From a virus, in IMG/VR virus record IMGVR_UViG_3300049597_000050, positions 1 through 25,331 of that record: DNA of 25,331 bases. One strand, 5' to 3'. A model generated the notes under the pieces. That model saw nothing but the letters and a program-made list of their open reading frames with translations. It ran no database searches and was not told the origin of the DNA. The stretch's first letter is position 1, and each line of letters starts with the position of its first letter. A program made the translations under genes and the position numbers. Positions 4,166 to 25,204 of the stretch are shown piece by piece.

Positions 4166-4166
4166 T

Positions 4167-5144
4167 ATGACAAACAAATGGATTGCAGAAACTCGTGCTG
4201 TTGAGCTAAGAGCTATTGTAGGACTAGAGAACTCTTTTGAGGGACTAGCTTGCCGCTATGGTGTAGAAGACTCTTATGGTACCACTTTCGTTTCAGGTTG
4301 CTTCACTCGTGGAGGACTAGATAAGGGTAGTTACTCACTACTATGGATGCACGACCCAAACCGCCCAGTTGGTACCTTTACAGCTGTTGAGCGTGCTGAT
4401 GGTCTATACATCGTAGGTAAATGGGATGACACTGCTGCTGGTAGAGATGCCCGTATGGCAGCTATGTCTGGTTCAGCTGGTGACCTATCAGTTGGATTTA
4501 CTTGGTACCAAGAACCAGGTCAAGATGAAGATTTGATTACTATCGCTAGACTACAAGAAGTTTCACAGGTTACTTCTCGCTTTGGTGCTGTCCCTGGTAG
4601 CGTGCTTACAGCCGTCAGGAACGCCGTAGAAGCCCTGGAAGACCGTTGGACTACCGAATACCCTAACAAAGAAGAAGCTGCCGTTACAAAGGATATTGAG
4701 CAGGGGACTCCAGAAGCAGAACAAGAAGAAGTTCAGGCTCCTGAGTTAGAGGAAACTGTTGAGGAAGTATTAGAAGAGACCGTAGAAGAAAGAGCAGAGC
4801 TAGGCGAACTAGCAGAAGGCGACTTCGTTTCTTTCGTATCTGAAGACGGTATAGAATACGGTCGTGTAGAATACATTATGACTGAGGGAACTTTTGGAGT
4901 AGAGGGAGACGCATTGTCTTTCCCAGCTTCTGAGGAGAACCCATTTGCTCTAATCCGTCTTTATGATAAAGAAGATGGGAAGTATGAGCCTACTACCACT
5001 TTTGTTGGTAAGAGCTTTGCAGAGCTAACTAAGATTGAACTTGTTGGAGATGTTACAGACGAAGAAACACCTCGTGAAGATAACAACGACGACAGAGCAA
5101 GCCGTATGGTATTGCTAGCCCGTTACATTCAAACATTGTTCTAA
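4167..5144 (+). CDS. Prohead maturation protease (HK97 U35/S78 type) with acidic linker and extra C-terminal domain
   Basis: Serine protease that trims the capsid during maturation. The catalytic residues are visible: H62 in LLWMHDPNRPVG, S108 in GDLSVGF, and an acidic candidate E131 in LQEVSQVTSRFG. The core takes about residues 10-155. It is followed by a Glu-rich low-complexity linker (about 165-210) and then a beta-rich domain at about 218-292 (EGDFVSF, GRVEYIMTEG, PASEENPFALIRLYD, ELTKIEL). That domain is one I have seen attached to proteases of actinobacterial phages and may act as scaffold. No separate scaffold gene is visible between this gene and the capsid gene, so the capsid delta domain and this C-terminal region are the likely scaffolding pieces. 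A hairpin follows the stop (5152-5186). Confidence 0.92.
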   Translation: MTNKWIAETRAVELRAIVGLENSFEGLACRYGVEDSYGTTFVSGCFTRGGLDKGSYSLLWMHDPNRPVGTFTAVERADGLYIVGKWDDTAAGRDARMAAMSGSAGDLSVGFTWYQEPGQDEDLITIARLQEVSQVTSRFGAVPGSVLTAVRNAVEALEDRWTTEYPNKEEAAVTKDIEQGTPEAEQEEVQAPELEETVEEVLEETVEERAELGELAEGDFVSFVSEDGIEYGRVEYIMTEGTFGVEGDALSFPASEENPFALIRLYDKEDGKYEPTTTFVGKSFAELTKIELVGDVTDEETPREDNNDDRASRMVLLARYIQTLF

Positions 5145-5151
5145 AAGATGT

Positions 5152-5186
5152 CTGGGGACTCTGTTGAGGGGTCGCTGGGTCCCCAG
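5152..5186 (+). repeat. GC-rich inverted repeat after the protease gene
   Basis: CTGGGGAC at 5152-5159 is perfectly complementary to GTCCCCAG at 5179-5186, with a 19-nt loop. No clean T-run follows (GCTTTCC), so a canonical terminator is doubtful. The arm sequence shares TGGGGA and GGGTCCCCA with the clear terminator at 7050-7097, so the two hairpins bracket the holin-like and capsid genes. It could attenuate transcription, protect or define an mRNA end, or separate two translation units. Confidence 0.6.
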
Positions 5187-5229
5187 GCTTTCCAAAAAAG
5201 AATCAGACTCCAAGTATAAGGAAAATATT

Positions 5230-5556
5230 ATGAGCACAAAGAACATCATTGATGTTATTACAGAAAAAGCAAGATTCTGGTTCCCACCTATCGTAGCATC
5301 TTGGACTCTATGGTTCTTAGGTATCTTTGCTACCTTCCTACTATCAGCAGCTAAGACTAACTTAGATAACGGTATCATTCCTCCACTAACATTTGGAGAC
5401 GCTGTAAACGCACTATGGGCAGCCATTGGTGCAGGTATCGCTGTTGCTATCCAGTATCTAGACAAGAAGTACACTCGTTACGGTGTAAATGCTTCTAACG
5501 CAGATGACATTGAGATGCCAACAGTAACAGAGGCTCCAGAGTTTAAACAGGACTAA
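5230..5556 (+). CDS. Small membrane protein with two membrane segments, holin candidate
   Basis: The protein is 108 aa from the ATG at 5230, which is preceded by a good AAGGAAA ribosome site. A longer in-frame start at 5164 would put the N-terminus inside the hairpin and has no such site. Two hydrophobic segments are visible, at about residues 15-39 (FPPIVASWTLWFLGIFATFLL) and about 56-76 (AVNALWAAIGAGIAVAIQYL), followed by a charged soluble tail. Small size, two membrane spans and a polar C-terminus fit a holin, but nothing in the sequence proves it. Its place between protease and capsid, 17 kb from the endolysin, is unusual. It is followed two bases later by a second small membrane protein, and the pair may act together. 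Confidence 0.75.
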   Translation: MSTKNIIDVITEKARFWFPPIVASWTLWFLGIFATFLLSAAKTNLDNGIIPPLTFGDAVNALWAAIGAGIAVAIQYLDKKYTRYGVNASNADDIEMPTVTEAPEFKQD

Positions 5557-5558
5557 TC

Positions 5559-5948
5559 ATGACTAACGAACTTACTCAGATAGTGCTTTCTGTTGCCGCT
5601 TTTATTACTGCCATTGGTGTTATCGCTATGGCTGCTAATAAGATTTATGGATTCGCTCGCCGTATTGAAAAGGCTATTGGCGAAGACAGTAAAGGCAGAA
5701 GCATATCTGACAGGCTCGCCAAAGTGGAGCACCAGGTATTCCCTAACGGTGGAGGGAGCTTATCCGACCAGATAAGCGATTTATCTACTGCCGTAACAAC
5801 ATTAGTAGCTAAGACTGAAACCATAGAGAATATGATGACAGGCATAACTGCTAACGCTATCAGTAATAATAATAAAAGATCTAGCCGCAGTCCTAGAGAA
5901 ACAGCAAAAAGCACGACTGTAAAAAACCCAACTACTACTAAAAAATAA
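5559..5948 (+). CDS. Membrane-anchored coiled-coil protein, possible holin partner
   Basis: The protein is 129 aa. One N-terminal membrane segment (about residues 7-30, IVLSVAAFITAIGVIAMAANKIYGF) is followed by a heptad-like region (about 50-105) and a basic Ser/Thr/Lys-rich tail rich in Asn (SNNNKRSSRS). This layout is common among small phage proteins annotated as holin-associated or membrane proteins. It starts two bases after the preceding gene, so the two are co-translated. The tail contains the 14-nt microrepeat AGTAATAATAATAA at 5862-5875, which recurs at 8850 and 10005. Function is not proven. Confidence 0.75.
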   Translation: MTNELTQIVLSVAAFITAIGVIAMAANKIYGFARRIEKAIGEDSKGRSISDRLAKVEHQVFPNGGGSLSDQISDLSTAVTTLVAKTETIENMMTGITANAISNNNKRSSRSPRETAKSTTVKNPTTTKK

Positions 5949-5962
5949 GGAAGGTTCCAGAC

Positions 5963-7018
5963 ATGGACATTCGTACACTACAGGCAGAAGCTGCAAACCT
6001 TGCAGCTATCGCTGAAAAAGGTGACCTAACCGAAGAGCAGAGCGTTCGCTTTGACGAGGTTATCAGCACCATTGAAAACAGAAAAGCACAGGCTGAGAAA
6101 GCTGCTCGTGCGATTTCACTAGTCAAAGACACTGAGGTTGTAGAGACCGTTGCTGTTGAGACTGCAGGCACCATCGGACAGACCTATGTTCGTTCAGGTA
6201 AGGCTGGTTCTCGTGACCGTGTCTCTGCTAACATGGAAATCCGTGCTACCCTAACTGGAGACATCGTTGTTAACCCAACTCTTGACAATGTTGCTACCCC
6301 ATCATTCAAGGCACCACTAACAAGCATCGTTTCAGTAACCCCAGTAACCACTGGTGACGTTACCGTTGTAACTGCTACTCCTACCTACGGCGACACAATC
6401 TTCACCGCAGAAGGAACCAACAAGGAAGAAGTTGAACTAACTTACACTTCTGAGGTTAAGGCACTTGGAACAATGACTGGTTTCATCAAGGCAAGCCGCC
6501 AGGCACTATCTGACTCAGCTCAGCTAGCTTCTGACATTGACCGTGAGCTAACCCAGAACCTAGTACGCAAGATCGAGAACCACATTGCTGGTACTCTATC
6601 AACAGCTACTTTCTCTGAGGTTGAGTCTGACGACATCCTTTCTGCAGCTTCTGTTGCAAAGGCTATCGTTGACAGCGGTCTATACACTGCTAACACCATC
6701 GTTCTAAACCCTATTGACAAGAGCAACATTGATGTTTCTGTTCTAGGTCTAGGCGGAACTTCTCCAATCGTAAACAACACTGTTTGGGGACTAAACATCG
6801 TTACCTCTGCTGCTGTTACTCAGGGAACCGCTTATGTTGGTGACTTCGCAGCTGCTGTTAAGTTCTACACCAAGAATGGCGTAGAGGTTTACACAACTGA
6901 CGCTGATGGAACCGACTTCATCAAGAACATCGTTACCGTTCTTGCAGAAGCTCGTGGAATCGCTGCTGTTGTAGCACCTGCTGCAATCGTAAAGATTGTT
7001 CCTGCAGTAGCTAGCTAA
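5963..7018 (+). CDS. Major capsid protein (HK97 fold, with N-terminal helical delta-like region)
   Basis: The protein is 351 aa and comes after the protease in the usual order. Residues about 1-50 are charged and helical (QAEAANLAAIAEKGDLTEEQ, IENRKAQAEKAARA), as expected of a delta domain that guides prohead assembly and may be removed by the protease. The rest has the alternating beta and Gly/Thr-rich character of HK97-type capsids, with FTAEGTNKEEVELTYTS resembling the E-loop/P-domain and GDFAAAVKFYTKNGVEVY the A-domain edge. AAGGAAGG precedes the start. Codon third positions are visibly richer in C than in neighbouring genes, which suits a very highly expressed protein. A strong terminator follows at 7050-7097. 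The cleavage site is not determined. Confidence 0.9.
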   Translation: MDIRTLQAEAANLAAIAEKGDLTEEQSVRFDEVISTIENRKAQAEKAARAISLVKDTEVVETVAVETAGTIGQTYVRSGKAGSRDRVSANMEIRATLTGDIVVNPTLDNVATPSFKAPLTSIVSVTPVTTGDVTVVTATPTYGDTIFTAEGTNKEEVELTYTSEVKALGTMTGFIKASRQALSDSAQLASDIDRELTQNLVRKIENHIAGTLSTATFSEVESDDILSAASVAKAIVDSGLYTANTIVLNPIDKSNIDVSVLGLGGTSPIVNNTVWGLNIVTSAAVTQGTAYVGDFAAAVKFYTKNGVEVYTTDADGTDFIKNIVTVLAEARGIAAVVAPAAIVKIVPAVAS

Positions 7019-7049
7019 TCGCTTTCTAACTAGGAACAAGAACCACTCG

Positions 7050-7097
7050 GAGGGTGGGGAACCTTGGGACTCCCTTGGGTCCCCACCCTCTATTTTT
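7050..7097 (+). terminator. Rho-independent terminator after the capsid gene
   Basis: GAGGGTGGGGA (7050-7060) pairs perfectly over 11 bp with TCCCCACCCTC (7080-7090) and is followed at once by TATTTTT (7091-7097). It separates the head block from the connector and tail genes. It probably limits read-through so that capsid message exceeds tail message, with leakage or an unseen promoter serving the tail genes. Confidence 0.9.
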
Positions 7098-7125
7098 AGA
7101 ACACAGACTTAATAAGGAGCCTAAG

Positions 7126-7773
7126 ATGGCATATTGCACAGAAGACGATGTAGAACTATACATCAACATAAACCAAGTACCAGATATTGAAGAAGTTATC
7201 ACTGCTGCTATGAACACAGTAGATACTTTTACTAAAGATATCTTTGAGTCAAGAGAGCTAACTGTTTATACTGAGGTTAATCGTTCTAATGTTGCTGAGC
7301 TTCCTTATGCAACACAGAGCATTGACAATATAGTAGCAGTACCATCACAAATAGAGATACCAGAGAACCTATGGGACTTTGAAGACGGTACAATAGCTCG
7401 CTTAAGGTTTTATACCATCGCTCCTTACAGCTTCCTTATAGTAGGAGCTGAACCTTATTCAGACCGCTATAAGCACGAACTTAGATTAAATGTAACTGGA
7501 ACATTCGGTTACCCAACAACACCATTTCAGATTAGAACTGCTACCGCACTACTTGCAGCTTACTACATTAGCCTAGCAGGATTTGGTGAACTAAAAGACG
7601 CAGCAACTAAACTTATTGGAACTTCTCCAGATATACAGTCATTAGAGGTAGAAGGATACAGAGTATCATATCGCCCTACTACTCAAGCAGCAGTAACTGA
7701 TAGTACTGGTCTAGTAGCCATTGACCGCCTATTAACACCTTTCAAGAGAACCAAACGAACAAAGGCAAACTAA
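7126..7773 (+). CDS. Head-tail adaptor (gp6/gp15-like connector)
   Basis: The protein is 215 aa from the ATG at 7126, which has AAGGAG just upstream. The frame is open further back to 7054, but that would start inside the terminator. It lies directly after the capsid gene, where the ring bound under the portal is normally encoded. The N-terminus YCTEDDVELYINI with an all-helical look, and the region FQIRTATALLAAYYISLAGFG near residues 145-170, fit the helical adaptor family. Function comes mostly from position and general fold. The stop overlaps the next start by one base. Confidence 0.78.
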   Translation: MAYCTEDDVELYININQVPDIEEVITAAMNTVDTFTKDIFESRELTVYTEVNRSNVAELPYATQSIDNIVAVPSQIEIPENLWDFEDGTIARLRFYTIAPYSFLIVGAEPYSDRYKHELRLNVTGTFGYPTTPFQIRTATALLAAYYISLAGFGELKDAATKLIGTSPDIQSLEVEGYRVSYRPTTQAAVTDSTGLVAIDRLLTPFKRTKRTKAN

Positions 7774-8126
7774 TGTTATTTGCAGGACCCAGTCTGGAAT
7801 CCCACGCAATCAGTGTTTACCGTAAGGAAAATGAGATTGACGAAGAGGGTATGCCTTCACAAGTCTTTGAGCTCGTAGAAGAGTTTAGAGGCGGTTTTGG
7901 TAGCGTTGCAACATCTAGAGAACTATATGTTGGTACTCCTTCACAGAGAGTAGATGCCGCTATCTCTACCTTCACAAATACACAAGCACAAATCGGCGAC
8001 AAGATAAATGTCAACGGTAGAGACTGGAAGTGTGTAGGAGTATCTACTACTGGACCTACTATCCGCATTTTTCTAGTTACTTGGGGACTTAATGTTGCAA
8101 GTACCAATAACGGAGGCGAAAGCTAA
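7773..8126 (+). CDS. Head-tail stopper or closure protein
   Basis: The protein is 117 aa and predominantly beta (SHAISVYRKENEID, VFELVEEFRGGFGSV, GDKINVNGRDWKCVGV, RIFLVTWGL). Size, beta-barrel character and place between the adaptor and the gp10-like gene fit the stopper that seals the head after packaging. It has one-base TAATG overlaps at both ends. Assigned by synteny and shape, not by a catalytic motif. Confidence 0.72.
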   Translation: MLFAGPSLESHAISVYRKENEIDEEGMPSQVFELVEEFRGGFGSVATSRELYVGTPSQRVDAAISTFTNTQAQIGDKINVNGRDWKCVGVSTTGPTIRIFLVTWGLNVASTNNGGES

Positions 8127-8461
8127 TGGATATTGACACCAGTGCATTTGAGAGAACAGCAAAAGCTTACCTTAAAACAGTAGAAGACCAGCTTTACAAA
8201 GATTTAGTTGGAGCAGGTCAAGAGATTCGTAACGAATCAGTCAGGGCTACCCCTGTTGACACTGGTGCCCTAAGAGCAGGATGGCAAGTAAGACAGAGTA
8301 GAACTCAGTATACAGCCGAAGTAGAGATATTTAACAAAGTACCTTATGCTGGTTATGTAGAATACGGCACAAGATACCAAAGATCTCAGCCTATGTTAAG
8401 ACCAGCAGTCAATAAGATTCTACCTAGACTTATTGCTAAGATAAGGAGATATGGAAAATAA
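8126..8461 (+). CDS. HK97 gp10-like neck / minor tail protein
   Basis: The protein is 111 aa. The family signature is clear: ATPVDTGALRAGWQV at about residues 39-53 followed by VPYAGYVEYGTRYQ at about 71-84 and a C-terminal basic helix. These proteins sit at the head-tail joint and are needed for tail completion. Overlaps of one base at each end place it in a tightly coupled connector cassette. Confidence 0.87.
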   Translation: MDIDTSAFERTAKAYLKTVEDQLYKDLVGAGQEIRNESVRATPVDTGALRAGWQVRQSRTQYTAEVEIFNKVPYAGYVEYGTRYQRSQPMLRPAVNKILPRLIAKIRRYGK

Positions 8462-8850
8462 TGACAGCAACGCTAGCAGGCTCTATAAGGGCTCGTATTT
8501 TAGAAGTTATACCAGAACTCCAAGTATATCGTAATGAGGCTCCTACGGGCGTCTCAGAGCCTCTCGTGGTCATATCTGACCCATTCTCCACAGTAAGTGA
8601 AGACCTAGGCAGCGATGTAGTTCTAAATGAAGAACTACAGTTAGATATCTATCTACCTTATGGTAGCATTTCTAACTTGGCTGACCAGATTCACGCTACA
8701 CTACACAGGGCTACCATTGATTACAATGAGTCCCAGGTTTATCGTTGCTCCGTAAGTGATAGAGTATATAATATCGCTGGCGAAGGTAACGATGATGGCA
8801 TATATCGTATTACAATGACTGTTGTAATCCGTAGAATGCTAACGCTATAA
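8461..8850 (+). CDS. Tail terminator / completion protein
   Basis: The protein is 129 aa. It occupies the position of the tail terminator (lambda gpU-like, DUF3168-like), between the gp10-like gene and the tail tube gene. The alternating alpha/beta pattern (LEVIPELQVYRNEAPTG, LQLDIYLPYGSIS, YRITMTVVIRRML) matches that fold: an N-terminal helix, then strands ending in a hydrophobic strand. It probably caps the tail tube hexamer and joins it to the neck. Called from synteny and length. Confidence 0.75.
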   Translation: MTATLAGSIRARILEVIPELQVYRNEAPTGVSEPLVVISDPFSTVSEDLGSDVVLNEELQLDIYLPYGSISNLADQIHATLHRATIDYNESQVYRCSVSDRVYNIAGEGNDDGIYRITMTVVIRRMLTL

Positions 8851-8899
8851 GTAATAATAATAAATAACCGACCCACAAAACCTAGGAAAGGTCTCAAAT

Positions 8900-9442
8900 A
8901 TGTCTGATTTAACAACACATGTATTCGGTGCACAACACGCCGAAATCGCTGAGCTACTGACTGATGACGCTGAAACTGGTCCAACATATGGAACACCTTT
9001 TGATGTCCCAGGACTAAAGAGCATCTCAGTATCTCCATCCTCAAATAGCGTAGAGCTAAGAGGAGACAACCAACTTCTTGCCAAGGAGACCGTTCTACAG
9101 ACCGTAGAAATCACCCTTGAGTTCGCTAAGTGGGATGCTCGTATCTATGCACTACTAACTGGTTCTACTATTGTAGAAGATGTAGAAACTGGTACTTACT
9201 CAGTACTATACAACACTTCTTCTACTCCAGCAATGTTTAGCCTAATGGCTGACTCAGCTGGTGCTACATCTGGTGCAACAGTCTCTATCTTCTTCCCGAA
9301 GCTACAGATTACCAACCTACCTGACATGATCGGTCTAGCTGAAGAAGACTTCAAGACTGTAACTGTTACCTGTGAAGCAATCCCTACCGCTGGTGGCGAC
9401 TGGATGAGCTTCTCATATTCACCTGCTGGACTAGAGTCCTAA
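8900..9442 (+). CDS. Major tail (tube) protein
   Basis: The protein is 180 aa, encoded directly before the tail chaperones and tape measure, which is the invariant place of the tube protein. It is rich in beta-prone segments (GLKSISVSPSSNSVELRG, ETVLQTVEITLEF, KTVTVTCEAIPTAGGDWMSF). It forms stacked hexameric rings around the tape measure. GGAAAGG lies upstream of the start. The 49-nt spacer before it holds the microrepeat at 8850-8863. Certain as a structural tail gene, and very probably the tube. Confidence 0.87.
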   Translation: MSDLTTHVFGAQHAEIAELLTDDAETGPTYGTPFDVPGLKSISVSPSSNSVELRGDNQLLAKETVLQTVEITLEFAKWDARIYALLTGSTIVEDVETGTYSVLYNTSSTPAMFSLMADSAGATSGATVSIFFPKLQITNLPDMIGLAEEDFKTVTVTCEAIPTAGGDWMSFSYSPAGLES

Positions 9443-9486
9443 GCAACAACTCCCCGACCCCATTATATAACTTATAGGAGAAACAA

Positions 9487-9855
9487 ATGAGCACAGATAA
9501 CTTATCATCACAAGTCCAGGCACCTGGTCGCAAGATAACACTAGCAAATAGCAACGAGATAACCATTAGATATGGTATGTCTGCTTTGGTAGAGTTAGAA
9601 AGAGAACACGGGTCTATTGGTGCACTAGTTAAGGTCCTGGAAAACGCTGAGACCAGCCAAGTATTCAGTGCTCTATCGCACGCACTATGGGCTGGTAGTT
9701 CAAGGAAGCTTCCTTTGGTTGCATTCATTGACCTACTAGACCCTAGGCGTGTCGGTGAATACTCACAAGCATTTGGTGAAGCACTATCAGAAGCAACTGG
9801 TAGCGGTGATAGCCAGGGGGAAGCACAAGCCGTCGGGGAGACGGCGACGAGCTAG
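9487..9855 (+). CDS. Tail assembly chaperone, short form (gpG-like)
   Basis: The protein is 122 aa. It lies between tail tube and tape measure, as the lambda G gene does. Its middle (EITIRYGMSALVELEREHGSIGALVKVL) is the usual helical chaperone core, and SALSHALWAG follows. A GGAG ribosome site is present (ATAGGAGAAAC). Near the 3' end lies a run GGGGGAA at 9816-9822, in the zero frame as CAG GGG GAA, where a -1 shift would continue translation into the next frame (see the long form). The short form folds or coats the tape measure protein before tube assembly. Confidence 0.88.
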   Translation: MSTDNLSSQVQAPGRKITLANSNEITIRYGMSALVELEREHGSIGALVKVLENAETSQVFSALSHALWAGSSRKLPLVAFIDLLDPRRVGEYSQAFGEALSEATGSGDSQGEAQAVGETATS

Positions 9856-10115
9856 TTCCTTGGGACGAGTGGTATTACATTGCCACCGTGGTTTTCGGGC
9901 GAACCGAAAAACAGTTCTGGAAGATGACCCCCGCACAACTGGGCATCCTATCAAATACACACGCTAAGGTTAATAACCCTGATGGGCACAAATCTAACGG
10001 TATGAGTAATAATAATAAGGGATCTCGTAGACTAAATCGTCTAGACCCTGATGATGTTAGAACTCCAGCTGTTCTTGCTGGATTAGCATCTATGAAACTA
10101 CCAAGAAAGCGATAG
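9487..10115 (+). CDS. Tail assembly chaperone, long form by -1 frameshift (gpG-T-like)
   Basis: The -1 frame is open without interruption from the slippery run at 9816-9822 to the TAG at 10113-10115. It encodes WDEWYYIATVVFGRTEKQFW and then TPAQLGILSNTH, a typical T-domain with the Trp-rich helix that recruits tape measure and tube. Shifting at GGG GAA would give about 209 aa. The downstream frame has only a GTG (9888) that would cut off the conserved WDEWYY segment, so independent initiation is unlikely. The frameshift itself is known for this gene pair in most long-tailed phages. The exact slip site here is inferred. Confidence 0.85.
9816..9822 (+). other. Programmed -1 ribosomal frameshift site
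   Basis: The heptamer is G GGG GAA, located 33 nt before the zero-frame stop at 9853-9855. In a -1 slip the glycine tRNA re-pairs perfectly on GGG and the glutamate tRNA can hold GGA with one G-U pair. A weaker option is C GGG GAG at 9834-9840. No strong downstream pseudoknot was worked out by eye. Confidence 0.7.
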
Positions 10116-10124
10116 GAGTGCACA

Positions 10125-11723
10125 ATGGCTAATGAGATAGCACCTATTAGTGTAAAGTTTACAGTTGACACCACAGGGTTAAAGAAAGCAGAATCTGCTA
10201 TATCACAATCTGGCGAACAGATTAAAGGTAAGTTTTCTGGCATCGGTAAAGGTGCAGGACTAGCCCTAGCAGCTGGTATAACAGCAGCAGCAGTAGGTAT
10301 TGGTAAGACAGTAATATCTGCTATTAAGACATCTATTGATGCTGCCAGCAATCTTGAAGAAAGTATTAGCAAGACTTCTGCCGTATTCGGAGATGAAGCA
10401 CTACCAGCTCTGGAAGACTGGGCAGCAGGGGCTTCCACAGCATTTGGGCAATCAAAACAGCAAGCCTTAGAAGCAGCGGGTTCTTATGGTAACCTATTAC
10501 AAGCATTTGGTTTAACTCGCGAACAAGCACAGGGCATGTCTGTTGATATGGTAGAGCTCGCTTCTGACCTAGCATCTTTTAACAACACTTCTGTTGATGA
10601 TGCATTAAATGCTATTCGTTCAGGACTATCAGGAGAGACTGAGCCTCTAAAGAGATTCGGTGTAGCTTTAAGCGAAGTAAGACTTAAAGAAACAGCAGAA
10701 GAAATGGGACTTGTTGCCAAGGGTACCAAGGGTCCCCTATCGGTAGCCATTAAATCACAAGCAGCTTATGCTCTTATCCTAAAAGACACTAGCCTAGCAC
10801 AAGGTGACTTCGCTAGAACATCTGACGGTCTTGCTAACTCACAAAGAACCCTAGAATCAGAACTAGCAAATGTTAAGACAGAGATTGGTGTAGCATTTAT
10901 TCCTATTATGAAAGAGCTAGTAATAGCATTTAGAGATGCACTACCTGAGATTAAAGAGAAGCTAGTCCCAGCATTAGGTGAGATGGCAGATAAGTTTAAG
11001 GCTGATATATTACCTGCTCTTATAACACTTATTCCAGCTATTACAGGATTATTTATTCTACTAGCTGAGAACATTGACACAGTTGTTACCTTAGTAACCA
11101 CATTAGGAACACTAACAGCTATTATTAAGACTTTTACAGTGCTACAAGCAGGACTAAACCTAGTACTATATGGTAACCCTATTCTATTAGTGGTAGCAGC
11201 TGTAGCACTTTTGGTTGCAGGTATTGTTTACCTGGCTACCCAGACCACCTTCTTCCAAGACACTTGGCAGAAACTAGCTGAGGCTTTCAGTTATGTTAAA
11301 ACTGTAATCGCTGACACATTTGAGAATGCTAAAGCAACTATCTCTGGCTTCTTTGACACTATCTTCGGATTCCTAAACGGTCTAGGAGACCAGCTATACA
11401 GTTTTGGTAAGACAGCGTGGGAAATGTTCGTACAGGGAGCCCTGGATGCCCTTCTAACTCTACCAAGCCTAGTTGCTGACGTCGTAGGGTCTATACCTGG
11501 CTTAGAATGGCTAGGAGACGGTATTAACAGCGGTATAGGAGCAGTTAGAGACACAGTATCAGCAGCTACAGGTACAACTAACCGTGGACAGACTAACCAG
11601 CCTGCAAGAGGACAAATAGTTAACAACTATAATGTTCAGGCAAGAGGATTAACAGTATCTGAAGTAGCAAGAGATGCTAAGCGTAGAAGCAACTTAATGT
11701 CACCAGTACTCGGAGGAGCATAA
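10125..11723 (+). CDS. Tape measure protein
   Basis: The protein is 532 aa, the length ruler of the tail. The N-terminus (ISVKFTVDTTGLKKAESAI) and the Gly/Ala-rich region at about 30-60 are typical, followed by a segment common in tape measure proteins (SISKTSAVFGDEALPALEDW, SYGNLLQAFGL, DLASFNNTSVDDALNAIRSG). Hydrophobic stretches lie at about 300-385 (ALITLIPAITGLFILLAENI, PILLVVAAVALLVAGIVYL), as expected of a protein that enters the host membrane. At roughly 1.5 angstrom per residue, the family rule, the tail would be near 80 nm. AGGAG precedes the start. No muralytic domain is visible. Confidence 0.93.
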   Translation: MANEIAPISVKFTVDTTGLKKAESAISQSGEQIKGKFSGIGKGAGLALAAGITAAAVGIGKTVISAIKTSIDAASNLEESISKTSAVFGDEALPALEDWAAGASTAFGQSKQQALEAAGSYGNLLQAFGLTREQAQGMSVDMVELASDLASFNNTSVDDALNAIRSGLSGETEPLKRFGVALSEVRLKETAEEMGLVAKGTKGPLSVAIKSQAAYALILKDTSLAQGDFARTSDGLANSQRTLESELANVKTEIGVAFIPIMKELVIAFRDALPEIKEKLVPALGEMADKFKADILPALITLIPAITGLFILLAENIDTVVTLVTTLGTLTAIIKTFTVLQAGLNLVLYGNPILLVVAAVALLVAGIVYLATQTTFFQDTWQKLAEAFSYVKTVIADTFENAKATISGFFDTIFGFLNGLGDQLYSFGKTAWEMFVQGALDALLTLPSLVADVVGSIPGLEWLGDGINSGIGAVRDTVSAATGTTNRGQTNQPARGQIVNNYNVQARGLTVSEVARDAKRRSNLMSPVLGGA

Positions 11724-11724
11724 A

Positions 11725-12159
11725 ATGTCAAGACAGATTACAATAACTAGAACTGAACTTAGCCTAGATGATTTAGACCTAAACGACCCTACAAACGGTT
11801 ATTTTGTGTCAGATGACTGGAGACCAGGCGGAGTAACTTGGGAGCGTTATGAGGCGTCTACAAGCCCGTTCGCACACGGTTCTACCATCGTTGCACAACG
11901 CAAAGTCAACCAAGATGAGATATTCACAGTTTATATTAACGCACTAGACCCAGAAGACTATCAAGATCTTTTAGATGCACTAAGAGAAGCACTATCACAG
12001 TTTAGATATTTTCTAACAATAAACTGGGATGGTAAAATCGTAACCTATGAAGCAGTAGGTGCGGGAGACATCGTAGCAGAGGGAGACAGGGTTGACCCTA
12101 TCCTTCACAGAGCTGGATGGCACCCATTCACAATAACAATCCCAAGAAGACCAGAATAA
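11725..12159 (+). CDS. Minor tail protein, probable distal tail component
   Basis: The protein is 144 aa, encoded one base after the tape measure stop. Beta-strand rich (RQITITRTELSLDDL, KIVTYEAVGAGDI, WHPFTITIPRRPE). Position and size match the short distal-tail or minor tail proteins seen after the tape measure in phages of actinobacteria. It probably forms the ring joining tube and tip. No enzymatic motif seen. Confidence 0.72.
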   Translation: MSRQITITRTELSLDDLDLNDPTNGYFVSDDWRPGGVTWERYEASTSPFAHGSTIVAQRKVNQDEIFTVYINALDPEDYQDLLDALREALSQFRYFLTINWDGKIVTYEAVGAGDIVAEGDRVDPILHRAGWHPFTITIPRRPE

Positions 12160-12173
12160 GGAGACCCTAGAAA

Positions 12174-12569
12174 ATGTTTTCAAATGCAGTAGTAAATACT
12201 ATGTTAGACGGAGTAGTAACAACCTATGGCGATATGAGCATAGGACTAACTACAACAATGCCGTACCTATCAAGCGGTTCAATCGTTGGTGTAACAGAGC
12301 CATCAGGTGGAGGCTATGCAAGAGCATCACTACCTGTAGCGTCTTGGGGACCAGCGGTCAACAGGGCGAAACCAACAGATACCGCAGTTACATTTCCAGG
12401 ACCTACTGGTACTTGGGGCTTTATAGTAGCAATCGTAGTATATGACACTAGCAGCGGATTACCAATATTTTATGGACCACTATCTTCAGGTGTAAGTATT
12501 GATGTATCAGTAGATGCTCCAAGAATCGTAGCAGGTGCTATTAGCTTAGCATTACCTGCCGTAGAATAG
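12174..12569 (+). CDS. Small tail fibre-like structural protein
   Basis: The protein is 131 aa. GYARASLPVASWGPAVNR (about residues 43-60), followed by TFPGPTGTWGFIVAIVVYD, is a pattern I associate with a small family of phage tail fibre or tip-associated proteins. It is wholly beta and Gly/Ser-rich, with no charged helix. It lies between the distal-tail-like gene and the hub protein, so it is probably part of the tip and may contact the host surface. AAGGAG is upstream of the start. Function is inferred from location. Confidence 0.65.
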   Translation: MFSNAVVNTMLDGVVTTYGDMSIGLTTTMPYLSSGSIVGVTEPSGGGYARASLPVASWGPAVNRAKPTDTAVTFPGPTGTWGFIVAIVVYDTSSGLPIFYGPLSSGVSIDVSVDAPRIVAGAISLALPAVE

Positions 12570-12583
12570 AGAGGCTATAACTA

Positions 12584-15472
12584 ATGTCTAAATGGATAGC
12601 AGCAGGTAGAACTATAGCTGGTGGTATTACTACACCAACAATAGTTCAGACAACTGACGGTATTAACTGGACCACTGTAACAACATCTGGATTACCTTTA
12701 AGAGGACAAGTTGATGCCGTACATTTTGGCGATGACTTATTTTTAGCTACCATAAGCGGAGCTACTATTTCTACCGAAAATGGTATATATAAATCAGCAG
12801 ATGGAATAACTTGGGTACAAGTAAACACATCTCAAGGAACAGTAGAGTTTGCTTGGGGTGAAGATATTTGGGCAAGAATACAACAGAGTAATGCTTCTAT
12901 ATCTTTTAATGATGGTACTACTTGGACTACTGCTCCTTTTACTTTGACAAATGCAAATAGGATTGCATATGGGTCTGGTAGATTCTTAGTATTTGCTAGG
13001 TCAAGCGGTAGTACTATTGCACTTCGTAGATATACAATAGGTACAGGTTGGGACCTTGTAAATATATCAGGACCAAGAGGTGGAAACTTTTCGGTAACAG
13101 GTTTAGAATATAACAATAATCGTTGGGTAGGAATAATAACATATTCAACTGGTCCAGCGTCTGTATATTCTATGCAATCCTTAGATAATGGTAATACTTG
13201 GACTTTTAATATAATATCTACTGCAACCGCTTCAGGTGGACTTGCTTATGGTAAAACACCAGGTGGACCTAGAGTATGGGTGACTGGTGTAGCGGTTGGT
13301 GCAACTATTTTTACTGCATATTCTACAGATTTAGTCACTTGGACTTTAGGAACTAATCCTTTTCCTACTCAAGTTATTGGTGCTGTAAACTATGCGAACA
13401 GTGTATTCTTTGTATCTCAGTCTACCGTAACAGGACAGTTAGCTCGTTCTTCTTCTAATCCTCCTTCTTTTAGCCTTGTTGCTGGTTCTCCTTTAATGAC
13501 AACAATATTTGGTCTATCAGATACTTTCCCTAGAGAAGATGACCCTTTTACTGATATTGAAGCATTGGGTAACAATGGGCACACGGTATACCAGCCGTCT
13601 TACATTTATGCTAGCCTACTATATAGAGGTCCATTAGTAAATGCTGAAAATGCTCTAACCTTATATACAGTACAAAAGGATTACAGATATGATAGTGCAA
13701 CAGAACTAGTTCCTGTATCACCTAAGGTATCAGATGATGGACTACCTTTCTACACTGATGTATATCCAGTAGGTGGAGACCCTGAAGATGATGAGTTTAG
13801 TACTAGACCAGGACAGGTACCTTATCACTCTGAAACTATATCACCTTGGGGTAAGATAGGTATTCTTATAAATAACGAAGATGTTACCTTCTTCCGTGAT
13901 GCTCCTACTATTATTGAAAGCATAAGCTGGCAGACATTTGGTAACTTTGAGACTTTGTCGCTATACTTCCCTCACATTACTGTTTATGACAAGCTTGGAC
14001 TTGCTACACCTACTACAAGCTCTGGAACAGGCGGAGGAGTAATCGCTTCATCTATTCCTTGGCTAAACGATAGTAACAATGTTGAGATTAGAAGACTAAA
14101 ACCAGATAACACAGAAGAAACCCTATGGATAGGTTCTATAAATGGTTTAGAACTAGATCCTAGCGGTTATGGTGTTAGACTAACTTGCTCTGGATTACTA
14201 TATGATACTAATCATCAACTTATACCTGGAGCATTTAGAGAAGTTGAGTTCGTAGCTCCTGAAGATGTTGGTATTATTACTGCTAATACTCTAAATAGCC
14301 TATCTGGTAGATGGACTTATGCTGAGCCTGCAACAGTTGGAGTAGAGACTATTAAGATTGGTAACTGGGATAACGCATTGGATTTCCTGAGAGCCTTGAA
14401 TACCTTTGGTACACCTAAGCTATGGTTTGATACTAATGCTACTCCTTTCGTAACTGGTAGACCAGATATGAATGAGTTTGATCTAGTTGCAGGACAAGAA
14501 GGTGTAGAGTTAAACCTTGCTTATGACTCTAACGCTATTCCTACACACATTTATGGTACAGGTACTATACCTTCTGGTGCAGCTTGGAGAAATGTTATCT
14601 ACCCTAGAATGACTGGTGATGATGCACAATACAGATGGCCTTTTGACGATGTAAACGCTACTCTAAGTAAGGGTATGAGAAATAGAGATACTATTAACAA
14701 CAATGGTCTTACTGCTCTTGGATTTATGCTTCAAGATAAAGCTTTAATATCTCCTTTTGCTCCGCCTCTAACAAGATTTAGCAACAGCGTACAGGGATTC
14801 GTAGAACAACTACAAGAGATTTACGAGCAAGAAGTTACAGGCGATGTTGACATTGAGCTATGGAACAACTTAGTTAGTGATACTCGTGGAGTAGGTAACT
14901 CTGTAGGTAATGCTTATATAGCTCCATTGTATGTTTCTCCGCTTGTAGACCCTACCAGCCCTTCTTATGACCCAAATGTTAAGAAGGTAGAACAGTTCAT
15001 TGACTTCGGTGGAGATATCACTCTAGAAGAAGGTATAGCTGTAGCTGAGTCTATCGTTCTAAGAGATTTGATTAGGGTTAACACTGGAGAACCAGCGGTA
15101 TACCGCCCACGCAAGAGCGTAACTGGTAATATTACTCTTACTGTATGTCCTGCTACCATATCTCGTTGGGATATAAAACCAGGCGATAGAGTTAAAGTCT
15201 GGACGCACTTATTTGCTCCTATCCCGAAAGATACACACAATACTGTTGAAGGCTTTACACAAGAAGCTGGAGAATGGGGTGGCTCTGTTGTACTATATGT
15301 ATCTAGAGTAGACTGGTCTTTCAATGGAACTCCAACTGTTACCTTAGAAGTATCATCTCGTGACTTAGAATACAGTGAGCTAGAAGCAGCTAAGAATAGA
15401 ACAAGAGTATCTAATGCTCAGGCTAGCGAGATTACAAGAATCAAGAAAGCTATTACTAAACCTAATAACTAA
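12584..15472 (+). CDS. Tail hub protein with N-terminal seven-repeat propeller-like domain
   Basis: The protein is 962 aa. Residues 1 to about 310 contain seven imperfect repeats about 37-50 residues apart, each with an Asp-box/BNR-like core: TDGINWTTV (24), ADGITWVQV (72), NDGTTWTTA (109), GTGWDLV (153), DNGNTWTFN (201), TDLVTWTLG (248) and a degenerate PPSFSLVAG (293). That is the layout of a seven-bladed beta-propeller, often used for sugar binding. From about residue 340 the sequence changes to that of a minor tail or tail-associated protein (WGKIGILINNEDVTFF, DWSFNGTPTVTLEVSSRDL). This part likely forms the tip hub, with a helical C-terminus. The propeller region appears more AT-rich than the rest, suggesting a swapped-in receptor-binding module. 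No peptidase motif seen. Confidence 0.82.
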   Translation: MSKWIAAGRTIAGGITTPTIVQTTDGINWTTVTTSGLPLRGQVDAVHFGDDLFLATISGATISTENGIYKSADGITWVQVNTSQGTVEFAWGEDIWARIQQSNASISFNDGTTWTTAPFTLTNANRIAYGSGRFLVFARSSGSTIALRRYTIGTGWDLVNISGPRGGNFSVTGLEYNNNRWVGIITYSTGPASVYSMQSLDNGNTWTFNIISTATASGGLAYGKTPGGPRVWVTGVAVGATIFTAYSTDLVTWTLGTNPFPTQVIGAVNYANSVFFVSQSTVTGQLARSSSNPPSFSLVAGSPLMTTIFGLSDTFPREDDPFTDIEALGNNGHTVYQPSYIYASLLYRGPLVNAENALTLYTVQKDYRYDSATELVPVSPKVSDDGLPFYTDVYPVGGDPEDDEFSTRPGQVPYHSETISPWGKIGILINNEDVTFFRDAPTIIESISWQTFGNFETLSLYFPHITVYDKLGLATPTTSSGTGGGVIASSIPWLNDSNNVEIRRLKPDNTEETLWIGSINGLELDPSGYGVRLTCSGLLYDTNHQLIPGAFREVEFVAPEDVGIITANTLNSLSGRWTYAEPATVGVETIKIGNWDNALDFLRALNTFGTPKLWFDTNATPFVTGRPDMNEFDLVAGQEGVELNLAYDSNAIPTHIYGTGTIPSGAAWRNVIYPRMTGDDAQYRWPFDDVNATLSKGMRNRDTINNNGLTALGFMLQDKALISPFAPPLTRFSNSVQGFVEQLQEIYEQEVTGDVDIELWNNLVSDTRGVGNSVGNAYIAPLYVSPLVDPTSPSYDPNVKKVEQFIDFGGDITLEEGIAVAESIVLRDLIRVNTGEPAVYRPRKSVTGNITLTVCPATISRWDIKPGDRVKVWTHLFAPIPKDTHNTVEGFTQEAGEWGGSVVLYVSRVDWSFNGTPTVTLEVSSRDLEYSELEAAKNRTRVSNAQASEITRIKKAITKPNN

Positions 15473-15615
15473 TAACTGTAATGTTTATGTAATGTGTTAC
15501 ATTTTATTACATAGTATTACACCGACTGCTGAAAACCCGTATGTCGGTTAACCGTGCGTCGGTTATCTGGGTGCTATAAGAACACCCAAGAAGAAAGAAC
15601 ATAAGAAAATAGCTG
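15473..15615 (+). repeat. Gene-free region, left part: TGTAA/TTACA and GTCGGTTA repeats
   Basis: No gene is credible here. An AT-rich dyad TGTAA-TGTG-TTACA lies at 15488-15501, inside a wider set of TGTAAT and ATTACA repeats (15477-15520). Two direct repeats GTCGGTTA stand at 15543-15550 and 15558-15565, with an inverted partner ACCGAC at 15521-15526 and a GGTTAACC palindrome at 15546-15553. A 6-bp hairpin TGGGTG/CACCCA lies at 15568-15588. The first dyad may be the end signal of the tail unit or an operator. No T-run marks a classic terminator. The cluster could also be part of an origin or a larger RNA. Confidence 0.6.
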
Positions 15616-15748
15616 GGTTGGTTTTAATAGGTTAAGTTGATCTATGGTTGAGTTATACGCCGACTAATCGGCGGACTCTCCAAAAACAATATTCAATGAA
15701 GATAAAAACAATCACTTTATCTGTTATAACTCTTCTTCTAAACCAGCC
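15616..15748 (+). ncRNA. Predicted multi-helix RNA in the gene-free region
   Basis: Nested pairings can be drawn by eye. The outer helix is GGTTGGTTT (15616-15624) with AAACCAGCC (15740-15748), 9 bp with one G-U. The inner helix is GAGTTATA (15650-15657) with TATAACTC (15725-15732), 8 bp perfect. Inside it, hairpin CGCCGA-CTAA-TCGGCG sits at 15658-15673, stacked directly on the inner helix, and hairpin AGATAAA/TTTATCT at 15700-15722. This makes a three-way junction closed by a long outer stem, which is more order than expected of random AT-rich DNA. There is no open frame, no tRNA features and no known RNA family that I recognise. It could be a leader, a small RNA or an origin structure. Confidence 0.45.
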
Positions 15749-15762
15749 AATCTGATATCATA

Positions 15763-15778
15763 TCGTTAGAGATATAAT
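15763..15778 (+). promoter_or_regulatory. Promoter candidate (TCGTTAGA + TATAAT)
   Basis: TATAAT at 15773-15778 is preceded by TCGTTAGA at 15763-15770. The same TCGTTAGA-TATAAT pairing occurs at 25167-25180, where it precedes a leader hairpin. No good -35 hexamer is seen at 17 nt. It would give a second start site about 60 nt upstream of the promoter at 15809-15838, so the operon may have tandem promoters. Confidence 0.5.
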
Positions 15779-15808
15779 AGTTAAAATAAATCTAAAAGTT
15801 TTTTCCTT

Positions 15809-15838
15809 GAAATATAAAAACACGCCGATATATATACT
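15809..15838 (+). promoter_or_regulatory. Phage promoter, copy 1 of the GCCGATATATATANT class
   Basis: GCCGATATATATACT (15824-15838) ends in a -10-like TATACT. An A-tract ends 4 nt before GCC, and upstream GAAAT matches copy 3. A TTGAAA at 15807-15812 could act as -35, but it is not kept in copies 2 and 3. The predicted start lies just before the leader hairpin at 15847. It drives the nuclease-like and sigma-like genes. Confidence 0.7.
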
Positions 15839-15846
15839 ATGAAACA

Positions 15847-15862
15847 GAGAGTGGCAGCTCTC
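15847..15862 (+). promoter_or_regulatory. Leader hairpin, copy 1
   Basis: Stem GAGAG (15847-15851) with CTCTC (15858-15862), loop TGGCAG. It is followed by CTTAAGAAAGAAGAGAAAT and the ATG at 15884, 21 nt after the stem. The arm sequence differs from the other copies yet still pairs, while the loop is identical. CTCT (15858-15861) could alternatively pair with AGAG (15874-15877) in the ribosome-binding stretch. Confidence 0.75.
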
Positions 15863-15883
15863 CTTAAGAAAGAAGAGAAATAA

Positions 15884-16549
15884 ATGAGTTTAGAACGAAA
15901 CGCAGGATATGCAAAGGGTAAGCCTAAAGAGGCTATATCTATTGCACGATTTACCGACTTCTTATCTAAGAAGATTACCACTGACTTTAATATTGTCACA
16001 GACAAAGAAACTCAGTGGCAGTTCGGAGATATCAAACTGGGCAATGAAAAGTTTATTGAAGTAAAAGGTCAAGGTATCAACCCTAACAAGTATGGAGGTA
16101 AGAACTTCATAGAACTTGGAGAGATGACCTTTAATGAAAAGCACTCTGGTGGCTTTAACCGATTAAAGGATATCCTTGGTATTCCAGATTTGGAGAACCA
16201 GGTTGTCAGCGACCGTAATAAGAATGTTGATAGACCTTTCGGCAGCCCAGAGATGTTTAATGTTGGTCTAACACCTGCATCAAACGATACAATGTATGCT
16301 TATGTCAATAATAAGCACGATAACGCAGATGAGGTTTATATCTACCTGTACTCAGCTAAGAACTTGCTATCTCTAGTTAGAAACGCTATACTATCAGATA
16401 CTAAGGTAACACTGGGTGCAGGTGGAGCTAACAATGTAACCTTCGGTATTACAATCCCTGTTGCTAAAGCAGTATGGAGACGCACCAATGGCGAATGGAC
16501 TTTTGTAGGGAGTGGAAATGAGCAAGAAATCATCAAAGCCATCTCCTAA
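15884..16549 (+). CDS. PD-(D/E)XK-like putative nuclease
   Basis: The protein is 221 aa. The segment FGDIKLGNEKFIEVKGQG carries the arrangement D49...E59-x-K61, which fits the catalytic core of the PD-(D/E)XK nuclease fold (D on one strand, ExK on the next). The N-terminal helix ISIARFTDFLSKKIT and an upstream Q/E-rich stretch fit the helix that precedes this core. The remainder (YAYVNNKHDNADEVYIYLYS, then GITIPVAKAVWRR) is not recognised. It might be a restriction-like or recombination nuclease, or a decoy without activity. It is the first gene behind the copy-1 leader and overlaps the sigma gene by 32 nt, so the two are co-expressed. Confidence 0.6.
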   Translation: MSLERNAGYAKGKPKEAISIARFTDFLSKKITTDFNIVTDKETQWQFGDIKLGNEKFIEVKGQGINPNKYGGKNFIELGEMTFNEKHSGGFNRLKDILGIPDLENQVVSDRNKNVDRPFGSPEMFNVGLTPASNDTMYAYVNNKHDNADEVYIYLYSAKNLLSLVRNAILSDTKVTLGAGGANNVTFGITIPVAKAVWRRTNGEWTFVGSGNEQEIIKAIS

Positions 16550-17261
16550 GCTTACACCTGAACAGGCTAAGCTTGTAGAAGACCATATCGCACTCGCAAG
16601 AAGTATTGCTAGGAAGATGACTCCTAAGGTTTCCCAAAACTTACTATCTTATGAAGATGTAGAGTCAATAGGATATCTAGCTTTATGTGTAGCCGCTATA
16701 TCGTTTGACCCAACTAAGGGCTTTGCATTTAGTACTTATGCTACTAGTGTAGTTAGAGCTGAGATTATTAAAGCTAACCGTAAAGGCTTTTCAAGTGTAT
16801 CTATTAGTGAGAGTTTACATATCACTATTTGGAACATTAACAAAGCGGTCAACAATGGCATTCCAGAGACCGTAGAAGCCCTCTCAGAGGCTCTTAATGA
16901 ACGACCTAGTAAGATTAGGCAGGCACTAGATCTAAAGGATTCTACAATAGGTTCAACAGATACTTATGTAAATATTCCTGAGCACTATTCATCGTTTATA
17001 GATGGTATAAAAGATACGGACGCACCAGTTGAAGAACAAGTGATGGATAATATCGCTGGGGAAGAAGTTCGTGCAGCAGTAAGAATGTTACCACCTAACT
17101 TCAGAGAGCTTATCGGGTATCGTTTCGGATTTATCACTGGTGAGCCAATGTTATCCGAAGAGGTTAGAGAACTAATAGATGTTGATGTAGATACTTATAG
17201 CAATATGGAATCAGCTGCTATGGAATATCTAGAAGCAATACTAAGAGGCTACAAAAAATAG
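16518..17261 (+). CDS. Phage sigma-70-family factor
   Basis: The protein is 247 aa from the ATG at 16518 (AGGGAG upstream). An in-frame GTG at 16512 is less likely. Region 2 is clear at about residues 18-90: LVEDHIALARSIARKM, then YEDVESIGYLALCVAAISFDPTKGFAFSTYATSVVRAEI, which in order resembles the core-binding and -10 recognition helices of sigma-70 (the FDPxxGFxFSTYA box). A region 3-like helical segment follows (about 113-140). Region 4 is recognisable but degenerate at about 180-243 (AAVRMLPPNFRELIGYRFG, then a weak HTH and AMEYLEAIL). It probably redirects host RNA polymerase to phage promoters, and the GCCGATATATATANT class in this window is an obvious candidate target. Confidence 0.85.
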   Translation: MSKKSSKPSPKLTPEQAKLVEDHIALARSIARKMTPKVSQNLLSYEDVESIGYLALCVAAISFDPTKGFAFSTYATSVVRAEIIKANRKGFSSVSISESLHITIWNINKAVNNGIPETVEALSEALNERPSKIRQALDLKDSTIGSTDTYVNIPEHYSSFIDGIKDTDAPVEEQVMDNIAGEEVRAAVRMLPPNFRELIGYRFGFITGEPMLSEEVRELIDVDVDTYSNMESAAMEYLEAILRGYKK

Positions 17262-17277
17262 TTAAAAAAATATTGGA

Positions 17278-17308
17278 AACTTTGGAAAAGGTTGCCGATA
17301 TATATAAT
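17278..17308 (+). promoter_or_regulatory. Phage promoter, copy 2 of the GCCGATATATATANT class
   Basis: GCCGATATATATAAT (17294-17308) ends in a perfect TATAAT, with AAAA four nt before GGTTGCC as in the other copies. No standard -35 at the right spacing is seen, which argues for an atypical sigma or activator. It lies just after the sigma-like gene stop, and the predicted transcript begins near the hairpin at 17318. Confidence 0.72.
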
Positions 17309-17317
17309 ATAACAACC

Positions 17318-17333
17318 GAGGGTGGCAGCCCTC
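17318..17333 (+). promoter_or_regulatory. Leader hairpin, copy 2
   Basis: Stem GAGGG (17318-17322) with CCCTC (17329-17333), loop TGGCAG. The 3' side continues as CTTAA, so CCTCCTTA resembles the end of 16S rRNA. TCCT (17332-17335) is complementary to AGGA (17343-17346) in the Shine-Dalgarno stretch AGGAAAGAG. The start codon at 17358 is 24 nt after the stem. Confidence 0.78.
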
Positions 17334-17357: not shown

Positions 17358-17582
17358 ATGAATCTAAAAGATTGGAACAAGCTAGAACTAGAACCAGCAG
17401 AGCTTGGTTTATGTGTATCGCTATTCAACGAAAAGAACAAAGCAGCAACAGAACAAGAAGCAGACCGTTATGAGGTCCTATTCATTGAGGGTATTATACA
17501 GCTAGCAAAGAAGTACAATGCTCAACCACACGCAGTACTAAACATCGTAACAGAAGAGCTAAAGAAGGGAGAAAACAACTAA
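17358..17582 (+). CDS. Small protein of unknown function
   Basis: The protein is 74 aa from the ATG at 17358, chosen because the conserved leader and AGGAAAGAG lie just upstream. The longer frame from 17322 would run through the hairpin. The product is acidic and helical (LNEKNKAATEQEADRYEVLF, IQLAKKYNAQPHAVLNIVTE), with no membrane segment or known motif. The stop overlaps the next start by one base, so it is coupled to the winged-helix gene and may work with it. Not recognised. Confidence 0.75.
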   Translation: MNLKDWNKLELEPAELGLCVSLFNEKNKAATEQEADRYEVLFIEGIIQLAKKYNAQPHAVLNIVTEELKKGENN

Positions 17583-18214
17583 TGCAAATCATACGAGCAC
17601 CAAGACCAGAGACTGGTTACACTACTATCCGTAATGATGTCCTTAGAGACACCAAACTATCATTCAGAGCTCGTGGGGTACTATCCTACTTGCTATCACA
17701 CACTGACAACTGGAGAACAGATGCAGAGTCTATGGCAGCTGTTGCAGCCGAGGGTCGCCAGGCAATCCAGACAGCTATGAAGGAACTAAAAGCAGCTGGT
17801 TATGTAGAGACTCGTAAGTCTCAGGACGCACTTGGTCATTGGATAACTACAACTATCGTTTATGATACTCCTGTAGATCTAAGAAACGCTAAGGCAGCTG
17901 TTAACTCTCGTAAAGGTAAGAAAGAGCGTGTAGACAACGCTTCTCACACTGCTAGCGAGATTGTAGCTAACGCTTGGGAACCTAACTCTAAGAACAATGT
18001 ACAAGCACCAGTAGCAGTTGTAAAGATTGTTGCTAATGCTCTTCGCAACGGTGTATCAGACCGTAAGATTACTAAGGCTCTTATCACTATCGCAGCAGCG
18101 GGTGAGACAGTAACCAACTACCGCCTAAACAAGGTTCTCCAAGGTTATCCAACTAGGGGAACAATAGCGGCAGATGTATCAGTTGACTGGTCTAAGGAAA
18201 GTACAGTACTCTAA
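17582..18214 (+). CDS. Winged-helix DNA-binding protein (replication-initiator or regulator-like)
   Basis: The protein is 210 aa. The N-terminal half (YTTIRNDVLRDTKLSFRARG, VLSYLLSHTDNW, and then MAAVAAEGRQAIQTAMKELKAAGYVETRK) is the winged-helix pattern shared by phage replication organisers and DnaD/RepA-like proteins: helices, a recognition helix, then a wing with YVETRK. A linker rich in Lys/Ala follows (about 100-135), then a second helical block (about 135-185). It overlaps its upstream neighbour and the downstream zinc-finger gene by one base each. Origin binding is possible but not shown. Confidence 0.72.
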   Translation: MQIIRAPRPETGYTTIRNDVLRDTKLSFRARGVLSYLLSHTDNWRTDAESMAAVAAEGRQAIQTAMKELKAAGYVETRKSQDALGHWITTTIVYDTPVDLRNAKAAVNSRKGKKERVDNASHTASEIVANAWEPNSKNNVQAPVAVVKIVANALRNGVSDRKITKALITIAAAGETVTNYRLNKVLQGYPTRGTIAADVSVDWSKESTVL

Positions 18215-18545: not shown

Positions 18546-18589
18546 ATGCCTCCCAGCTTGCAGACCTCCTGGGAGGCATTACCGTTTTT
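18546..18589 (+). terminator. Rho-independent terminator, long perfect stem
   Basis: ATGCCTCCCAG (18546-18556) pairs with CTGGGAGGCAT (18569-18579) over 11 bp with a 12-nt loop. TTTTT follows at 18585-18589, five bases after the stem, which is a little far for an ideal terminator. Ends the unit that began with the sigma-like gene region. Confidence 0.75.
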
Positions 18590-18637
18590 AGAGGCAACGG
18601 GTACAGTAATAATATATAGTAACCCCTCAGGAGAGAA

Positions 18638-23799: not shown

Positions 23800-23807
23800 G
23801 CAGAGAG

Positions 23808-23828
23808 CCTTCCTTCGGGAAGGTTTTT
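23808..23828 (+). terminator. Rho-independent terminator with UUCG loop
   Basis: CCTTCC (23808-23813), tetraloop TTCG, GGAAGG (23818-23823), then TTTTT (23824-23828). The UUCG loop is exceptionally stable. Ends the transcription unit of the endolysin. Confidence 0.93.
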
Positions 23829-23861
23829 CTGTTTCTCAGCCAGTTACAAAATAGTTTGCTA

Positions 23862-23891
23862 GAAATCTAAAAGCTAGCCGATATATATATT
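23862..23891 (+). promoter_or_regulatory. Phage promoter, copy 3 of the GCCGATATATATANT class
   Basis: GCCGATATATATATT at 23877-23891 with TATATT at the -10 register. Upstream GAAATCTAAAAGC matches copy 1 (GAAATATAAAAAC). Here the hairpin begins directly after the -10, whereas copies 1 and 2 leave 8-9 nt; so the start site would lie inside the hairpin 5' arm unless the promoter is read with a different spacing. Confidence 0.68.
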
Positions 23892-23907
23892 GTGGTTGGC
23901 AGACCAC
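23892..23907 (+). promoter_or_regulatory. Leader hairpin, copy 3 (stem sequence differs)
   Basis: Stem GTGGT (23892-23896) with ACCAC (23903-23907), loop TGGCAG. All five pairs are kept although both arms differ from copies 1, 2 and 4. ACCT (23906-23909) can alternatively pair with AGGT (23919-23922) in the ribosome-binding stretch GAAGAGGTAAAA. Start codon at 23927. Confidence 0.75.
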
Positions 23908-25188: not shown

Positions 25189-25204
25189 GAGGGTGGCAGC
25201 CCTC
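25189..25204 (+). promoter_or_regulatory. Leader hairpin, copy 4
   Basis: Stem GAGGG (25189-25193) with CCCTC (25200-25204), loop TGGCAG, identical to copy 2. TCCT (25203-25206) is complementary to AGGA (25214-25217) within AGAAGGAAAGAG. Start codon at 25227, 22 nt after the stem. Confidence 0.78.

Follow-up and report, generated by a model that had tools for sequence, protein, structure and literature searches.

RNAs from gene-free gaps have been seen by RNA sequencing in the actinobacteriophages D29, L5 and StarStuff (PMC5712189), and one of them, the D29 63-64 intergenic RNA, has no known function (PMC5712189). Cluster K mycobacteriophages carry a short repeated element, SAS/ESAS, just upstream of start codons, with inverted repeats in ESAS (PMC3203893). 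Here we describe two kinds of candidate RNA element in a 25,331-base virus record (hereafter, the window, meaning the whole stretch that was analysed). One is a branched fold at positions 15616-15748. Like the RNAs of D29, L5 and StarStuff, it lies in a gene-free phage gap; unlike them, it is a prediction from sequence, and the phage collection yielded nothing related to them by sequence. Those three are phages of Actinobacteria. The fold also resembles the hairpins and terminators in the 3' untranslated regions of phage late operons in lying just past the last structural gene, as an inverted repeat in a relative does, but it has no U-tract and is branched rather than a single hairpin. The other candidate, a set of leader hairpins with the loop TGGCAG, resembles SAS/ESAS in position and differs from it in sequence, in having a constant loop on a variable stem, and in standing directly after a promoter-like sequence.

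The gene-free spacer and its surroundings

The recognised genes of the window all lie on the + strand, and the 411-base spacer at 15473-15883 is its largest gene-free gap (Table 1). No open reading frame resembling a gene was found in the spacer: frames inside it are at most 45 amino acids long, and antisense and downstream frames only overlap its end. The first-pass annotation had recognised no gene, tRNA or known RNA here, and the open reading frame list, ARAGORN and Rfam agree with this for the region. ARAGORN reported no tRNA or tmRNA, Rfam 15 gave no match in the window at the gathering cut-off, and relaxed limits returned only a chance match on the other strand (11.6 bits, E 2). The annotation had also placed the region at the border between the tail genes and the regulatory block, which the gene order bears out.

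Table 1. Coordinates of genes and candidate elements in and around the spacer.
Feature	Position	Strand	Remarks
Terminase-to-tail genes (late, structural)	300-15472	+	
Gene-free spacer	15473-15883	+	From tail gene stop codon to gene 15884-16549; open reading frame list, gap table
A+T-rich palindrome	15477-15521		19% GC; TGTAAT/ATTACA repeats; just 3' of the late operon's last stop codon
GC-richer island	15520-15600	+	49% GC; three successive hairpins, CCGAC..GTCGG, TAACCG..CGGTTA, TGGGTG..CACCCA
Branched fold	15616-15748	+	Outer stem 15616-15624/15740-15748
8-bp hairpin	15627-15645	+	Pair probability ~0.8; makes the outer junction three-way
Competing local hairpin	15646-15681	+	GAGTT 15650-15654 with GACTC 15674-15678, lengthening the CGCCGA-CTAA-TCGGCG hairpin; centroid fold
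Inner 8-bp stem	15650-15732	+	15650-15657/15725-15732; closes second junction
7-bp hairpin AGATAAA/TTTATCT	15700-15722	+	Pair probability about 0.56-0.68
Promoter-like repeat TTGAAA ... GCCGATATATATACT	15807-15841	+	Downstream of fold; repeated at 17294 and 23877
5' leader hairpin GAGAG-TGGCAG-CTCTC	15847-15862	+	One of four copies
Gene without known family	15884-16549	+	No Pfam or PHROGs match
Sigma factor gene	16512-17261	+	
Predicted replication-initiation-like (rep-like) gene	17582-18214	+	
HNH-like gene, ParB-like gene, small terminase, methyltransferase-like gene, amidase with LysM domains	After rep-like gene	+	

The spacer is uneven in composition, with a GC content of 19% and 27% on either side of its core, and 323 bases of it contain the repeated 6-mers ATTACA (four times), CGGTTA (three times) and ACCGAC (three times). 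The A+T-rich palindrome is no more stable than its shuffles (z -1.3). The GC-richer island folds at z -3.3, as does the longer stretch 15520-15760 (~240 nt), with 0/200 shuffles as stable in either case. The segment 15616-15748 starts 144 bases past the last late-gene stop codon, and ~58 bases separate its end from the promoter-like repeat. A search of the + strand of the spacer (15473-15883) gave neither a U-tract terminator nor a promoter-like site, and a GC-skew switch is absent there. By eye, stems followed by a T-run, as in terminators, are seen elsewhere at 18547-18590 (after the HNH-like gene) and 23805-23832 (after the amidase gene), with none at the end of the tail genes.

Two minor coding features were noted. 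A hydrophobic 19-codon frame, MKIKTITLSVITLLLNQPI (15696-15755, within a 35-codon open reading frame), looks like the start of a signal peptide; it was set aside as a gene, being very short and having no apparent Shine-Dalgarno site, and is probably due to chance. In the gene at 15884-16549, the stretch KFIEVKGQG in our own judgement resembles a PD-(D/E)XK nuclease motif.

Helices and predicted stability of the 15616-15748 fold

Four mutually compatible stems had been proposed by eye, and all four are present where they had been placed, with a single G-U as the sole pair that is not Watson-Crick. The outer stem, GGTTGGTTT/AAACCAGCC, consists of eight Watson-Crick pairs and this G-U; the inner stem, GAGTTATA/TATAACTC, pairs perfectly; the hairpin CGCCGA-CTAA-TCGGCG occupies 15658-15673; and the fourth is the 7-bp hairpin of Table 1. 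The minimum-free-energy fold of the 133 nt (-34.6 kcal/mol) contains them all together. The three-way junction described at the same time is there but is not single, as the overlooked hairpin at 15627-15645 gives two nested three-way junctions.

In the partition function, the pairs of the outer stem have probabilities of about 0.7-1.0 and those of the inner stem only 0.34-0.46. The inner stem is less than 50% populated because its GAGTT also pairs with GACTC at nearly equal energy: the competing stem has a probability of ~0.53, and the local-hairpin form folds at -34.0 kcal/mol, compared with -34.6 kcal/mol for the minimum-free-energy form. These two near-equal forms could constitute a switch, or the fold could just be ambiguous.

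At fixed boundaries, the + strand of the segment is far more stable than its shuffles, with z -4.7 (200 shuffles) and z -4.5 (1000 shuffles, 0/1000 as stable), while the - strand of the same segment reaches z -1.5, with 76/1000 shuffles as stable. In this folding model, the strand asymmetry favours an RNA made from the + strand, which is the sense strand for every gene, and the excess is smaller when the segment is folded as DNA (z -3.9 and -2.2). Across both strands of the whole window, 15616-15748 ranked lowest in z among 764 equally long segments, in a scan that used 25 shuffles per segment and whose register favoured 15616-15748.

The fixed-boundary z-scores overstate the case because the boundaries were picked by eye. 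When boundaries were left free, a 133-nt stretch folding at -34.6 kcal/mol or lower turned up in 28/1000 shuffles of 15473-15795 (2.8%), and two long-range stems, one nested in the other and at least 9 and 8 bp long, in 71/2000 (3.6%). Within the spacer, the 133-nt stretch with the most stable fold is 15550-15682 (-36.7 kcal/mol), not the one first proposed, and the whole 411-base spacer folds at z -2.7 on the + strand and z -3.1 on the - strand, with the strands about equal. After boundary correction, the excess stability is therefore modest, a few per cent of shuffles matching it. The shuffled-sequence control that the first-pass annotation had called for thus divides the claim: at fixed boundaries no shuffle is as stable, but ~3% do as well once the boundaries are free. 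The helices found by folding by eye are real, but freedom in the choice of boundaries reduces a striking z-score to a level reached by ~3% of shuffles.

Relatives of the spacer and the reading of the fold

Searches among phages found no DNA relative of the spacer, and none of the relatives of the flanking proteins in viral and genome contigs spans it. A terminase search identified six contigs of the same family (L004-L009), with terminases 55-73% identical and the gene order of the window; the junction from tail to sigma factor is covered by none of the virus-family contigs. Among relatives, G005, whose tail protein is 44% identical, ends 84 bases past the stop codon of its tail gene; ~10 bases past that stop stands a GC-rich inverted repeat, 14 bp long and perfect, without sequence similarity. 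G006 starts upstream of its sigma factor, inside a different, unrelated gene. A single-sequence covariance model run against 54 other loci recovered itself and weak matches only, none of them credible. The best outside match (L063, 16 bits) falls within a 305-codon open reading frame on the other strand with many pairs broken, and was rejected as chance. Relative to the window, two of the family contigs have an additional ~300-400 bases midway through the portal gene (L008:5423-5820 and L009:12693-13159).

We tentatively read the spacer as an untranslated region following the late operon that, if transcribed, would contain a branched 3' untranslated structure, with any role being in cis; both its transcription and any role are what we infer. 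The spacer would separate the late (structural-gene) operon from the promoter of the sigma-factor operon, and it would form a 3' untranslated region on any late transcript that continues beyond the stop of the tail gene. In that RNA, a branched structure could then alternate between two nearly equal forms, and the likeliest role, if there is one, would be that of a barrier in cis, shielding late mRNA at its 3' end or keeping the two operons insulated from each other. The difference between the strands (z -4.5 on + and -1.5 on -) and the lowest z in the window support this reading, as do the position of the fold between the late-gene stop and the next promoter-like repeat and the presence of a strong inverted repeat at the same position in G005. 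It is also supported by the spacer having no + strand U-tract terminator, though by eye the phage has such terminators elsewhere. Counting against it are the modest boundary-corrected excess (2.8% and 3.6% of shuffles), an inner stem that is less than 50% probable, the - strand of the whole spacer folding as well as the + strand, and the GC content of the segment, which at 35% is below the 42% of the genome, unlike that of many stable RNAs. More generally, on these folding predictions the spacer may give a functional RNA; a real one would add an orphan structured RNA, from a phage family not in culture, to the many candidates of this kind.

Nearly as likely as the 3' untranslated structure is a chance fold of an A+T-rich regulatory spacer, selected by eye in the one long gap without genes, on which nothing depends. 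The shuffles with an equally stable 133-nt stretch or a comparable nested stem pair are what such a fold would lead one to expect, as are the other best 133-nt stretches of the spacer, which differ from the one first proposed, and the failure to find the fold in any relative searched; chance accounts less readily for the complete lack of equally stable shuffles at the original boundaries, for the clear strand asymmetry and for the first rank of the segment by z among 764. A discrete, trans-acting small non-coding RNA, perhaps including the 15520-15600 hairpins (about 240 nt in all), is unlikely: the z-scores of 15520-15760 and 15520-15600, the local rise in GC content to 49% and the RNAs expressed from gene-free gaps by D29, L5 and StarStuff (PMC5712189) speak for it, and the spacer offers neither a + strand promoter-like site nor a U-tract terminator, neither an Rfam match nor a relative. 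More improbable again is the specific proposal that 15520-15760 encodes a novel non-coding phage RNA, ~240 nt long, with a 3' half that would toggle between the long-range 8-bp stem and the local hairpin, acting as a switch at the border of the late and sigma-factor operons. A site acting at the DNA level, such as an origin of replication with putative binding repeats, seems the most remote of these readings. The A+T-rich flanks, the TGTAAT/ATTACA and GTCGGTTA repeats and the predicted rep-like gene about 2 kb away would suit an origin, but GC skew does not switch, some of the repeats are merely the two arms of hairpins, and the excess stability is greater for a one-strand RNA than for DNA. 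The small RNA and origin readings are less likely than either the 3' untranslated structure or chance folding.

Promoter-like repeat and TGGCAG leader hairpins

The first-pass annotation had also suggested a riboswitch-like leader. The gene at 15884 has its promoter-like repeat and its leader hairpin from ~15807 onward, 3' of the structure, and a transcript starting from this repeat would omit the fold; judged from this arrangement, 15616-15748 is unlikely to be the leader of that gene. Copies of the promoter-like repeat ending in GCCGATATATATA occur three times (15807-15841, 17270-17310 and 23855-23890), and a variant, TTAGATATAATATA, precedes 25189. The sigma factor that the phage itself encodes may recognise the repeat.

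Four hairpins of the window have the hexaloop TGGCAG (15847-15862, 17318-17333, 23892-23907 and 25189-25204), each on a 5-bp stem: GAGAG/CTCTC, GAGGG/CCCTC (twice) or GTGGT/ACCAC. Every one of them directly follows an A+T-rich -10-like sequence, which in 3/4 cases carries GCCGATATATATA, and they stand about 12-25 nt ahead of a start codon. In 200 shuffles of the whole window, the commonest hexaloop reached four copies once. Among the loci compared, TGGCAG is the commonest hexaloop on such a stem before a start codon, with 6 cases, and three other loops have 5. The count alone is thus not exceptional, and the strength of the sequence pattern would lie in the shared promoter context together with stems that vary yet remain paired. 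A scan of viral sequences for the combination of promoter and leader hairpin returned a sole match (L105), where TGGCAG has no paired stem, and this was set aside as chance. In the relative L004, this hairpin arrangement of the window occurs once (around 151-172), with GCCGATAATGTAA and an 8-bp stem. On the sequence comparisons, the TGGCAG leader hairpins appear to be a better-supported RNA element than the 15616-15748 fold and, with stems that differ yet pair, a better entry to RNA-level control in this phage.
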